A stretch of DNA of 59,006 bases, taken from NCBI GenBank assembly GCA_947373105.1, contig CANBWK010000007.1, positions 1 through 59,006 of the forward strand, written 5' to 3'. The notes under the pieces are model-generated. The model was not told the DNA's origin. It saw only the letters and a program-made list of their open reading frames with translations, and did no database searches. Origin of the DNA: Comamonadaceae bacterium. GTDB taxonomy: Bacteria; Pseudomonadota; Gammaproteobacteria; Burkholderiales; Burkholderiaceae_C. Numbering within the stretch: position 1 is the stretch's first letter; every line of letters begins with the position of its first letter. Both the position numbers and the translations under genes were made by a program. Shown one piece after another: positions 41,929 through 44,797 of the stretch.

Positions 41929-41985
41929 TCCCTCCGGCTTAAAAGGCCGAACAATATCCTTTGGGCGTGGTTGGTGCTCTTTCTC

Positions 41986-41991
41986 TACAAT
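41986..41991 (+). promoter_or_regulatory. -10 element of a predicted leaderless transcript (tldD)
   Basis: TACAAT ends 6 nt (GGGGGC) before the ATG at 41998. TTGGGC at 41961-41966 is a distant -35 candidate (19 bp). Confidence 0.5.
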
Positions 41992-41997
41992 GGGGGC

Positions 41998-43458
41998 ATG
42001 ATTTCTCGTGAACCCACCCTTGAACGCCTGGCCACGGCCCGGTCCTTGTTGCTTGAACCTTTTGGTTTGGATGAAACGCATTTGACGCAGGCCTTGTCTG
42101 CAATCAAAGCGCACAAAATCGATGATGCCGATTTGTACTTTCAATACACCCGCTCAGAAGGCTGGAGTTTGGAGGAAGGCATCGTTAAAACTGGCAGTTT
42201 CAGCATTGATCAGGGTGTGGGCGTCAGGGCTGTTGCAGGTGAAAAAACAGCATTTGCGTATTCCGATGACATCTCTATCAGTTCTTTGATGGACGCCGCA
42301 GTCACGGTACGCAGCATTGCCAGTGCCGCGCAAAATCGCCGAGCCAAAGTGCCCGCCCGCAAAGTAGCAACAAGTCGTTTGCTCTACCCTTCCATGGACC
42401 CGATGGGCAGCATGGACAGCGCGGCGAAAGTCAAATTGCTAGAGAAGGTTGAACAACTCGCACGTGCCAAGGATGCCCGTATTGTGCAGGTCATGGCGGG
42501 TTTGGCCACTGAATACGACGTGGTAATGGTGGCGCGTGCAGATGGTACGTTGGCCGCCGATGTTCGCCCTTTAGTCCGTTTGTCGGTCTCGGTCATCGCC
42601 GAGCAAGGTAAGCGCCGCGAATCAGGTAGCGGCGGTGGAGGTGGACGGTTTGGGTTGGCGTATTTTGATGACGCAATGATCAACACTTATGTCAATGATG
42701 CTGTTCATGCTGCCGTCACCAATTTGGACGCACGTCCTGCGCCAGCAGGTGAAATGACGGTTGTATTAGGTCCGGGTTGGCCAGGAGTCTTGTTGCATGA
42801 AGCGATCGGGCATGGACTTGAAGGCGACTTCAACCGCAAAGGCTCCAGCGCTTTCAGCGGTCGCATTGGACAACGTGTCGCGGCAAAAGGCGTGACCGTC
42901 TTGGATGACGGTACCTTGGCCGATCGACGGGGCTCGCTCAATGTCGATGATGAAGGCCATGTCAGCCAGCGCAATGTCCTGATCGAAGACGGTATTTTGA
43001 TGGGGTACATCCAGGACTCCATGAATGCCCGACTCATGGGCGTCAAACCGACAGGCAATGGCCGACGTGAAAGTTACGCCCATGTTCCCATGCCCCGCAT
43101 GACCAACACGTACATGTTGGGAGGAGACAAAGCGCCTGAAGAAATTGTGGCCAGCATCAAGAAGGGTTTGTATGCCCCCAATTTTGGTGGCGGACAGGTG
43201 GACATCACCAGCGGCAAATTCGTCTTTTCTGCCAGCGAAGCCTATTGGGTTGAAAACGGCAAAATTCTGTACCCCGTCAAGGGGGCCACACTGGTGGGTA
43301 GTGGGCCTGAATCTCTCAAAAAAATCTCCATGATCGGCAACGACATGCGTTTGGACAGCGGTGTGGGCACTTGCGGCAAGGAAGGTCAAAGCGTCCCTGT
43401 GGGCGTAGGCCAACCTACTTTGCGAATTGACGGTTTGACCGTTGGCGGCACGGCTTGA
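41998..43458 (+). CDS. tldD: metalloprotease TldD
   Basis: TldD forms a heterodimeric zinc protease with TldE (PmbA) that trims unfolded peptides and matures microcin B17 and CcdA-type substrates in enterobacteria. The protein has 486 residues from ATG 41998. The catalytic motif is HEAIGH near residue 265, within VLLHEAIGHGLEGDFNRKG, followed by SVPVGVGQPTLRIDGLTVGG at the C-terminus. No tldE is nearby. A longer reading from 41971 would overlap the -10 element and is not supported. Confidence 0.95.
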   Translation: MISREPTLERLATARSLLLEPFGLDETHLTQALSAIKAHKIDDADLYFQYTRSEGWSLEEGIVKTGSFSIDQGVGVRAVAGEKTAFAYSDDISISSLMDAAVTVRSIASAAQNRRAKVPARKVATSRLLYPSMDPMGSMDSAAKVKLLEKVEQLARAKDARIVQVMAGLATEYDVVMVARADGTLAADVRPLVRLSVSVIAEQGKRRESGSGGGGGRFGLAYFDDAMINTYVNDAVHAAVTNLDARPAPAGEMTVVLGPGWPGVLLHEAIGHGLEGDFNRKGSSAFSGRIGQRVAAKGVTVLDDGTLADRRGSLNVDDEGHVSQRNVLIEDGILMGYIQDSMNARLMGVKPTGNGRRESYAHVPMPRMTNTYMLGGDKAPEEIVASIKKGLYAPNFGGGQVDITSGKFVFSASEAYWVENGKILYPVKGATLVGSGPESLKKISMIGNDMRLDSGVGTCGKEGQSVPVGVGQPTLRIDGLTVGGTA

Positions 43459-43504
43459 GCTTCATGGGTCTCGAGTCCTTTCAAGTGATGTCAGAAACTT
43501 GTGA

Positions 43505-43510
43505 TACATT
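43505..43510 (+). promoter_or_regulatory. extended -10 for the aroG leader transcript
   Basis: TGATACATT is an extended -10 type sequence. The hexamer TACATT ends 6 nt before the leader ATG at 43517, so the leader peptide would be translated from a leaderless RNA. TTCAAG at 43480-43485 is a poor -35 candidate. Confidence 0.45.
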
Positions 43511-43516
43511 GCCACC

Positions 43517-43588
43517 ATGAATTCGCGTATTGCATTTTATTTTTACTTTTGGTTCTCAGTCCCCGGCGGACGAGAGGCGAGCGCGTAA
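43517..43588 (+). CDS. aromatic leader peptide for aroG attenuation (23 aa)
   Basis: This is a 23-codon reading frame whose codons 7-13 encode FYFYFWF: four Phe, two Tyr and one Trp in a row. Such a run is the hallmark of an amino-acid-sensing leader peptide (pheL/trpL type). It ends 84 nt before the DAHP synthase gene, the entry enzyme for all three aromatic amino acids. Codons 15-18 contain CCGGCGG, identical to the 3' arm of the terminator hairpin downstream, so the same segment can capture the terminator's 5' arm. Ribosome stalling on the aromatic codons would leave that segment free and prevent termination. No Shine-Dalgarno sequence is visible, and translation may be leaderless. Confidence 0.85.
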   Translation: MNSRIAFYFYFWFSVPGGREASA

Positions 43589-43617
43589 ACAGCACCCCAC
43601 TCAGTCAAAACCGCCGG
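43563..43617 (+). promoter_or_regulatory. antiterminator pairing of the aroG attenuator
   Basis: CCGGCGG at 43563-43569, inside the leader peptide frame just after the aromatic codons, is perfectly complementary to CCGCCGG at 43611-43617, the 5' arm of the terminator. The two pairings are mutually exclusive. Confidence 0.7.
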
Positions 43618-43642
43618 AGCCTAAAGCCCGGCGGTTTTTTTA
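43607..43642 (+). terminator. attenuator terminator upstream of aroG
   Basis: AAAACCGCCGG (43607-43617) pairs with CCGGCGGTTTT (43628-43638), and a run of T continues to 43641. It lies between the leader peptide and aroG, so it must be passed for aroG expression. Confidence 0.88.
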
Positions 43643-43672
43643 TTTTCAGTTTTATTTTCAAGGAGTTTGATG

Positions 43673-44797
43673 ATGCCCACGAAAGCCACTGCCACCAGCG
43701 AAGCCTGGTATGCGAACCAAGTCGACAAAACAGGACAAACCGACGACGAACGCATCAAGGACATCACCGTGCTCCCACCTCCAGAACATTTGATTCGCTT
43801 TTTTCCTATTGCCGGTACACCGGTGGAAAAGCTGATATCACAGACCCGCAAGGCCATTCAAAACATCGTGCATGGCAAGGACGATCGCTTGTTGGTCATT
43901 ATTGGTCCTTGCTCGATCCACGACCCAGCCGCAGCAATCGAGTATGCGCGCCGACTCAAGCCTTTGCGTGACAAGTACGCCGATACCTTGGAAGTAGTGA
44001 TGCGCGTTTACTTTGAAAAACCGCGTACGACAGTGGGCTGGAAAGGGCTGATCAACGATCCGTATTTGGATGAAAGCTGCCGCATCGATGAAGGTCTGCG
44101 TATTGCCCGCCAACTGCTGATCGAGATCAACCGCGCCGGCTTGCCAGCGGCAAGCGAGTTTCTGGATGTGATTTCACCGCAGTACATTGGTGACTTGATC
44201 AGCTGGGGTGCCATTGGTGCCCGTACGACTGAGAGTCAGGTGCATCGCGAATTGGCCTCTGGTTTGTCTGCCCCAATTGGCTTCAAAAATGGCACCGATG
44301 GCAACATTAAAATCGCAACGGATGCGATTCAGGCAGCCTCTCGTGGGCACCACTTTTTATCTGTGCATAAAAATGGTCAAGTGGCGATTGTGCAAACACA
44401 GGGTAACAAAGATTGCCATGTGATCTTGCGTGGCGGCAAGGCGCCCAACTACGACGCCGCCAGCGTGGCTGCAGCGTGTAAAGAGCTGGAGGCCGCAAAA
44501 TTACCGGCCACCTTGATGGTCGATTGCAGCCATGCCAACAGCAGCAAATTGCACACCCGTCAAATTGAGGTGGCCAAGGACATCGCTGCGCAAATGGCGG
44601 GCGGTTCTCACCAAGTTTTTGGTGTGATGGTCGAGAGCCACTTGCTGGATGGCGCGCAGAAATTCACGCCGGGCAAAGACGATCCTTCCAAGTTGAATTA
44701 CGGTCAGAGTATTACCGATGCCTGCATCAGTTGGGACGACAGCCAGCAGGTTTTGCAGGTTTTGTCGGATGCCGTGAAGTCGCGCCGTTTGCGCTGA
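43673..44797 (+). CDS. aroG: 3-deoxy-7-phosphoheptulonate (DAHP) synthase, class I
   Basis: DAHP synthase condenses phosphoenolpyruvate and erythrose 4-phosphate, the first step of the shikimate pathway. The protein has about 374 residues, the AroG/AroF/AroH type. Motifs are IIGPCSIHDP near residue 80, MRVYFEKPRTTVGWKG with the PEP-site residues, GARTTESQVHRELASGL and MVDCSHANSSK. Which aromatic acid inhibits it cannot be read directly. ATG occurs at 43670 and 43673; AAGGAG at 43660-43665 gives a 7-nt spacing to the second. Expression is predicted to be controlled by the aromatic attenuator just upstream. Confidence 0.95.
   Translation: MPTKATATSEAWYANQVDKTGQTDDERIKDITVLPPPEHLIRFFPIAGTPVEKLISQTRKAIQNIVHGKDDRLLVIIGPCSIHDPAAAIEYARRLKPLRDKYADTLEVVMRVYFEKPRTTVGWKGLINDPYLDESCRIDEGLRIARQLLIEINRAGLPAASEFLDVISPQYIGDLISWGAIGARTTESQVHRELASGLSAPIGFKNGTDGNIKIATDAIQAASRGHHFLSVHKNGQVAIVQTQGNKDCHVILRGGKAPNYDAASVAAACKELEAAKLPATLMVDCSHANSSKLHTRQIEVAKDIAAQMAGGSHQVFGVMVESHLLDGAQKFTPGKDDPSKLNYGQSITDACISWDDSQQVLQVLSDAVKSRRLR

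Follow-up and report, generated by a model that had tools for sequence, protein, structure and literature searches.

The DAHP synthase gene aroG of this Comamonadaceae genome is very probably controlled by ribosome-mediated transcription attenuation, governed across its relatives by phenylalanine, nearly always by tyrosine and often by tryptophan. The window (the whole stretch of 59,006 nucleotides analysed, whose coordinates are used throughout) carries, between tldD and aroG, a short leader frame with seven consecutive aromatic codons followed by two alternative hairpins; this reading draws on the parts themselves, on their conservation, covariation and geometry, and on their association with aroG.

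All parts of the locus lie on the forward strand. The upstream neighbour tldD (41971-43458; NF008006 above cut-off) is outside the switch. An extended -10 promoter element, TGA-TACATT, occupies 43502-43510, and its spacing to the leader ATG predicts that transcription begins with the A of the leader AUG, at 43517. The leader ORF, seen in the sequence and in the ORF list, spans 23 codons (43517-43588, with ATG at 43517 and stop TAA at 43586-43588), lacks a Shine-Dalgarno sequence, and encodes the peptide MNSRIAFYFYFWFSVPGGREASA, for which an NCBIfam search returned no match. Its control codons, TTT TAT TTT TAC TTT TGG TTC (Phe-Tyr-Phe-Tyr-Phe-Trp-Phe), are located at 43535-43555. By folding, and by covariation for UUCUC/GAGAG, segment 1 pairs with segment 2 in a pause hairpin (43553-43576), in which UUCUC (43553-43557) is joined to GAGAG (43572-43576) and GUCC (43559-43562) to GGAC (43568-43571). 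Segment 2 also holds the antiterminator arm CCGGCGG (43563-43569), complementary, as the sequence-only reading had claimed, to CCGCCGG in segment 3 (43611-43617); from segment 2 the outer helix of the antiterminator extends into GAG (43572-43574) and further. Segment 3 is a shared arm, being both the 3' arm of the antiterminator and the 5' arm of the terminator, and segment 4 (CCGGCGG, 43628-43634), part of the terminator stem, is identical to segment 2 in the window, so that segment 3 is able to pair with either. The intrinsic terminator formed by segments 3 and 4 (43607-43641) has its stem at 43607-43638 and its U tract at 43635-43641; described from sequence alone as a perfect terminator at 43607-43642, it does fold where it was placed, but a single A bulges ahead of the last two inner pairs. 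The RNA fold that had been suggested as a check gave, for 43505-43660, a minimum free energy of -40.4 kcal/mol (z -2.0, equalled by 6 of 200 shuffles). Downstream lie the Shine-Dalgarno AAGGAG of aroG (43660-43665) and aroG itself (43670-44797, start ATG at 43670), the proposed regulated gene, whose product scores above cut-off with NCBIfam TIGR00034 and NF009395 (538 bits against a cut-off of 173 for TIGR00034, aroFGH) and has one match only within its own genome; both the FYFYFWF frame and its position before DAHP synthase are as first placed.

These parts suggest the following course of events. RNA polymerase would start at or near the leader AUG, and a ribosome would load on the leaderless mRNA. 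With charged tRNA-Phe scarce (also tRNA-Tyr and, in this lineage, tRNA-Trp), the ribosome would slow on FYFYFWF, leaving the CCGGCGG arm free to capture the emerging CCGCCGG, so that no terminator would form and aroG would be transcribed. With all three plentiful, the ribosome would cover the first CCGGCGG and CCGCCGG would pair with the second, forming the 3:4 terminator that would end transcription in the U tract, close to 43640. The UUCUC/GAGAG hairpin would serve both as the 1:2 pause and as a default-termination element. A response to amino-acid starvation is what we infer from this arrangement.

The element was found to be widespread. The comparison comprised 110 aroG loci, 30 from the same genus and 80 from named genome contigs, with some sequences common to both sets, and a leader ORF precedes aroG in 101 of them. 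No leader was seen at the other nine, namely L067 (for which upstream sequence is lacking), four Polynucleobacter, two Cupriavidus, L107 and L108. Among the named carriers are Polaromonas, Acidovorax, Hydrogenophaga, Limnohabitans, Variovorax, Rhodoferax, Comamonas, Ottowia, Rubrivivax and two Polynucleobacter. The last genus is mixed, with the leader seen in L062 and L065 and none in L073, L075, L079 and L082, a possible loss. A covariance model was built from 75 non-redundant members (alignment A1), whose rows were picked by a GG[CT]GG-plus-T rule and in which the GGCGG of segment 4 and the first Us are, under that rule, invariant. In a sample of the family this model gave one full-length match in each of 120 genomes out of 120 (115 of 115 genera) at E <= 1e-6. 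At the level of the order, 61 full-length matches (E <= 1.8e-4) were obtained in 60 of 250 genomes, spanning 14 families as counted from the listing, and 60 of the 61 precede aroG in the DNA fetched to check them, the remaining one preceding leuA. At L175, where the ORF finder chose a different frame, the model match (513-638) is immediately upstream of aroG. Three weaker full-length matches followed at E 0.002-0.004, of which G269 proved to be an aromatic leader in front of aroG, unlike G073 and G077. Beyond the order, the model matches 2 of 229 genomes of the class, both from one family and both before aroG: L260 has an ATG-led aromatic leader, and L261, with no ATG-led frame over threshold, has a GTG-led frame readable by eye in the alignment.

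When the order was sampled evenly by family, the leader stood at 16 of 69 aroG copies (L236, over the aromatic threshold but without a terminator, was left out of the 16), and the second aroG copies of the carrier genomes G081, G098, G108 and G115 are without it. Within its own genome, the window copy is the only full-length match; the other nine matches listed are partial, mostly to the terminator only, and the stretches fetched from that genome show no leader rich in aromatic codons ahead of trpE or pheA. Leader and aroG occur together in L068 (Solimonas sp. SE-A11), where aroG is 80% identical to that of the window. For this Solimonas-labelled locus and the two genomes outside the order, the pattern suggests that gene and switch moved as a unit, or that the record is mislabelled. 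Had close relatives lost the aromatic codons or the pairing, this would, as stated beforehand, have spoken against an attenuator; the opposite was found: the leaders at 101 of 110 aroG loci, the matches in 120 of 120 family genomes and the covarying pairings described below (the antiterminator core within A1 excepted) support the attenuator reading.

The geometry of the switch was modelled in 118 leaders, 13 of 131 being left out of this set and of the antiterminator covariation set for want of anchors. The ribosome footprint was masked from -15 to +12 about the A site, an assumed extent, and the pairing of segment 3 was computed before segment 4 emerges. In this fold model, the probability of the 2:3 pairing averaged 0.87 while an aromatic codon occupied the A site (n = 821) and 0.003 two to seven codons beyond the last aromatic (n = 696), and the switch point fell 0-2 codons after the last aromatic in 102 of the 118 leaders, with 15 not showing the expected switch point. 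The distance from the last aromatic codon to GGCGG is 10-15 nt in 107 of 118. For the window, the modelled probability is 0.9 at F, Y, F, Y, F and W and 0.6 at the last F, then 0.0 from the next Ser for nine codons, 0.6 at the last Ala and 1.0 at the stop. In a static model, a ribosome at the stop codon leaves segment 2 free again in 61% of 67 leaders, the window included, and ribosome-free RNA forms 2:3 at a probability above 0.5 in 36% of leaders (0.93 in the window). Since 2:3 forms in both states, termination in plenty would need timing, or release followed by the pause hairpin: on these models, RNA polymerase would have to clear the terminator during the passage of the ribosome over segment 2, or else quick release would have to combine with the pause hairpin. 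In the available part of its text, a model of trp attenuation treats release at the stop codon as a determinant of the basal level (PMC1183508).

Aromatic residues make up 29.5% of 75 leaders and 5.5% of the aroG products of the same loci, and Phe is written as TTT in 64% of cases in the leaders against 24% in those aroG genes, a preference that fits slow codons and also a need for unstructured U-rich RNA. The aromatic block could be aligned in 84 of 98 distinct leaders (14 not fitting the block rule were left out; the 98 exclude identical sequences and L102, which has no terminator by regular expression), and much of its variation consists of TTT/TTC, TAT/TAC and Phe/Tyr swaps. Behind the aromatic run, the nucleotides of the GGRE block hardly vary among the 61 leaders with that motif. 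Read in this way, the aromatic block as codons and the GGRE block as RNA, the leader looks translated.

As for what is sensed, Phe codons are present in all 118 leaders, Tyr codons in 112 and Trp codons in 82; 80 leaders combine the three, 32 have Phe and Tyr, four Phe only and two Phe and Trp. Phe is thus the constant signal, and codons for all three are the family rule and not a fixed property of the element, so the proposed sensing of three aromatic amino acids holds for the codon content of most leaders and fails as a universal statement. In L002, L004, L005, L016 and L022, of the same genus, Trp TGG has become Gly GGA via small shifts; to judge from the codons, the Trp input is lost in some close relatives. 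Both the codon counts and these five relatives would suit an attenuator that is real but senses Phe only, with the Tyr and Trp codons as passengers or minor inputs, as would the AroR leader of Corynebacterium, which answered Phe limitation with no effect of Tyr availability according to the available part of the report (PMC11802643). However, in the model the arm is free whichever aromatic codon of the window the ribosome occupies, so a stall on any of the three kinds should be effective; among the 84 aligned leaders, a Tyr codon (TAC or TAT) stands at one position in 68, and 64 retain TGG. We regard sensing of Phe only as unlikely, though deserving of real weight.

Attenuation through alternative pairing is also supported by covariation. 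For the pause helix UUCUC/GAGAG, none of 500 shuffles scored as high and four of the five pairs have changed on both sides; slid by +2 columns, the helix pairs 88.7% of cells, versus 91.7% in register. In L036, L049 and L051 the ORF already stops at the first bases of GAGAGG and the motif is retained nonetheless, which marks it as an RNA element. In the order-wide antiterminator, the base before GGCGG in segment 2 changes with the base after CCGCC in segment 3: among the 118 leaders, counted as sequences and not as independent events, the pair is C-G in 57, U-A in 22, U-G in 6 and G-C in 1, complementary in 86, against a mean of 71.1 and a maximum of 84 in 5000 permutations. Furthermore, an outer helix joins GAGAGG with a CUC-rich sequence ahead of segment 3, and its cognate duplexes outdo every one of 5000 permutations and, after thinning to 16 sequences, all except 22 of the 5000, with a reversed-sequence control leaning slightly the same way (-6.41 vs -6.15, sd 0.19). 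Within A1 alone, covariation of the 7-bp antiterminator core was not above shuffles (72 of 500 by cells paired, 91 of 500 by score), and the duplex of the whole region 2/3 differed only weakly between cognate and noncognate partners (-20.2 vs -19.2 kcal/mol, better in 44 of 75), in both cases because the core is nearly invariant.

Two further explanations concern how the RNA might act. The discrete terminated RNA of ~125 nt that is predicted here, together with the precedent of a leaderless trp attenuator RNA with trans roles in the accessible text of PMC7298713, would be compatible with the leader RNA or its peptide acting in trans as well, like rnTrpL and peTrpL of Sinorhizobium; we judge this improbable, since in the 75-row alignment the sequence drifts between the aromatic block and the hairpins. 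Even less credence is given to a protein- or metabolite-bound RNA switch with an incidental peptide: the nearly frozen RNA just 3' of the aromatic run resembles structured RNAs, but segments 1 and 2 account for this constancy, and a riboswitch would not need the coding signature, the codon bias or the near-fixed spacing. Among the Rfam matches listed for the aroG element, leader and T-box families included, none reached the gathering score of its family. Bp2_287, on the minus strand, had the lowest E of the matches below threshold (17 bits against 70), aligned mainly with the symmetric terminator hairpin, and was dropped.

The leader is real and far above chance. It is the sole ORF of at most 45 amino acids with an aromatic run of at least 5 in the whole window, on both strands, and dinucleotide shuffles of the tldD-aroG gap gave no run of 7 aromatic codons in a short ORF (0 of 5000) and runs of 6 in 3 of 5000. 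Concerning its neighbour, tldD is the next gene upstream in the window, on the same strand; among the 101 leader-bearing loci it takes that place in 65 and not in 35, one locus being too short to tell. Order-wide, it is upstream in 12 of 56 leader-bearing loci and not in 44, and it also precedes 6 of the 18 leaderless aroG copies checked (of 53 such copies in the family-even sample). The leader stays with aroG when the neighbour changes, so the element belongs to aroG. A mere tldD terminator with a chance aromatic frame in a U-rich gap, to which the usual position of tldD lends some appearance, is ruled out by this neighbour comparison and by the shuffles, in line with the full-length matches throughout the family sample, and we leave it practically no likelihood. 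A generic scan of 43000-44000 flagged no promoter and no terminator; its rules need both promoter hexamers and a small terminator loop, and the blank result is due to the bulged A in the stem and to a promoter of the extended -10 type with, by eye, a poor -35.

In 92 of 98 distinct leaders, 91 of which also have TGn, the TAnnnT of the -10 element ends 6-8 nt ahead of the ATG, whereas at control spacings of 14-16 and 22-24 nt it does so in 1 and 0 of 98, respectively; in the order-wide set the strict promoter spacing occurs in 27 of 56, and in the controls in 0 and 2 of 56. An SD-like motif is found at 2 of 98 leader starts versus 83 of 98 aroG starts, and at 2 of 56 order-wide leaders, so the lack of a leader Shine-Dalgarno, remarked on from the window sequence alone, extends to the relatives. 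Given a -10 element ending 6-8 nt before the AUG and no Shine-Dalgarno, the leader mRNA is probably leaderless, with transcription predicted to start on the leader AUG or at most one or two bases from it, which would explain why the ribosome-binding motif is missing. One or two TGTCA motifs lie upstream of the -10 in the window (43489-43494) and in many of L002-L030 (e.g., tgtcaggaactgtcatc), and possibly represent a -35 or a regulator site.

The same arrangement recurs before leuA. In the 3.47-Mb genome, the motif TGTGnTAnAnT-N5-8-ATG has two matches (one for a reversed control), which are the aroG leader and MILTTPILTLLSPNGRDM before leuA. The latter lies outside the window, at G000:C15:28044-28120 (L264, 1501-1580), and consists of TGTGCTAAAGT, an ATG and the peptide MILTTPILTLLSPNGRDM with two CTA Leu codons, followed by a terminator-like hairpin and leuA; many relatives have LALLL-type leaders at this place. 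Across 24 family genomes the motif occurs 32 times and its reversed form 13 times; the 30 loci fetched comprise 11 aroG leaders, 15 leuA-type leaders (poly-Leu) and 4 that are neither. In the leuA-type leaders the -10 element ends 5-8 nt before the ATG, and a terminator-like stretch follows in 13 of 15. Six of them (L266, L271, L278, L279, L282 and L286) stand before a gene only 26-29% identical to the leuA of the genome, which may represent a second isopropylmalate-synthase class. Compared with the aroG leader, the leuA leaders of the family share the TGTGnTAnAnT promoter element, but differ in their codons, Leu in place of aromatic, and in the gene downstream, which is of the leuA type. We tentatively propose, as an idea with nearly as much for it as against it, that the amino-acid attenuators of this betaproteobacterial group share a leaderless design, in which a stereotyped extended -10 sets the start on the leader AUG, gating aroG as well as leuA.

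The proposed aroG attenuator resembles pheL-pheA and trpL-trpEDCBA of enterobacteria in its leader ORF, 1:2 pause, 2:3 antiterminator, 3:4 terminator and aromatic end-product signal. Unlike those systems, which sense one amino acid each and control branch enzymes, a mixed aromatic run stands here before the common entry enzyme. The enterobacterial pheL and trpL leaders have Shine-Dalgarno sites, and the branched-chain leader of ilvGMEDA carries codons for more than one amino acid. An AroR attenuator upstream of aroF in Corynebacterium glutamicum is reportedly the subject of Neshat et al. 2014. In the accessible portions of two sources, AroR has a Phe-Tyr-Phe leader upstream of aroF and is induced under Phe limitation (PMC11802643, PMC4046766). 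It is thus alike in placing a leader peptide with Phe-Tyr-Phe before a DAHP synthase gene under attenuation (here predicted), and unlike in belonging to another phylum and in its Phe-Tyr-Phe run, with no Trp mentioned in those portions, against seven aromatics in the aroG leader; we assume the likeness to be convergence. Likewise, in the text available, IlvL of Streptomyces is a leader with codons for more than one amino acid (PMC8079986). A leader for several amino acids, judged unusual by the sequence-only reading, therefore has precedents in the branched-chain leaders, in IlvL (PMC8079986) and in AroR (PMC11802643), as far as the available parts of these sources go. RNAs that begin at the AUG of the leader ORF are described, in the parts available, for the trpL attenuator of Sinorhizobium meliloti and for Streptomyces leaders (PMC7298713, PMC8079986); those leaders serve Trp, Leu and other signals, whereas the aroG leader is predicted to be leaderless from its promoter spacing. 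The open-access literature searched yielded no paper on an aroG attenuator in betaproteobacteria and no description of a leaderless start linked to attenuation in this group. The class of mechanism is old, and the betaproteobacterial aroG element, its mixed run, its breadth and the proposed leaderless design common with leuA appear to be undescribed in that literature.

Taken together, these observations provide a testable account of control at the entry of the aromatic pathway, through an RNA element of ~125 nt present in every family genome sampled. They offer a natural example in which a single leader is positioned to read as many as three end products at their common step, and the divergent natural versions (Phe only, Phe-Tyr and Phe-Tyr-Trp) allow codon specificity to be tested directly. 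Through its likely leaderless start the element links attenuation with leaderless translation and, if the design shared with leuA is true, such attenuators would read charged tRNA plus whatever favours leaderless translation.
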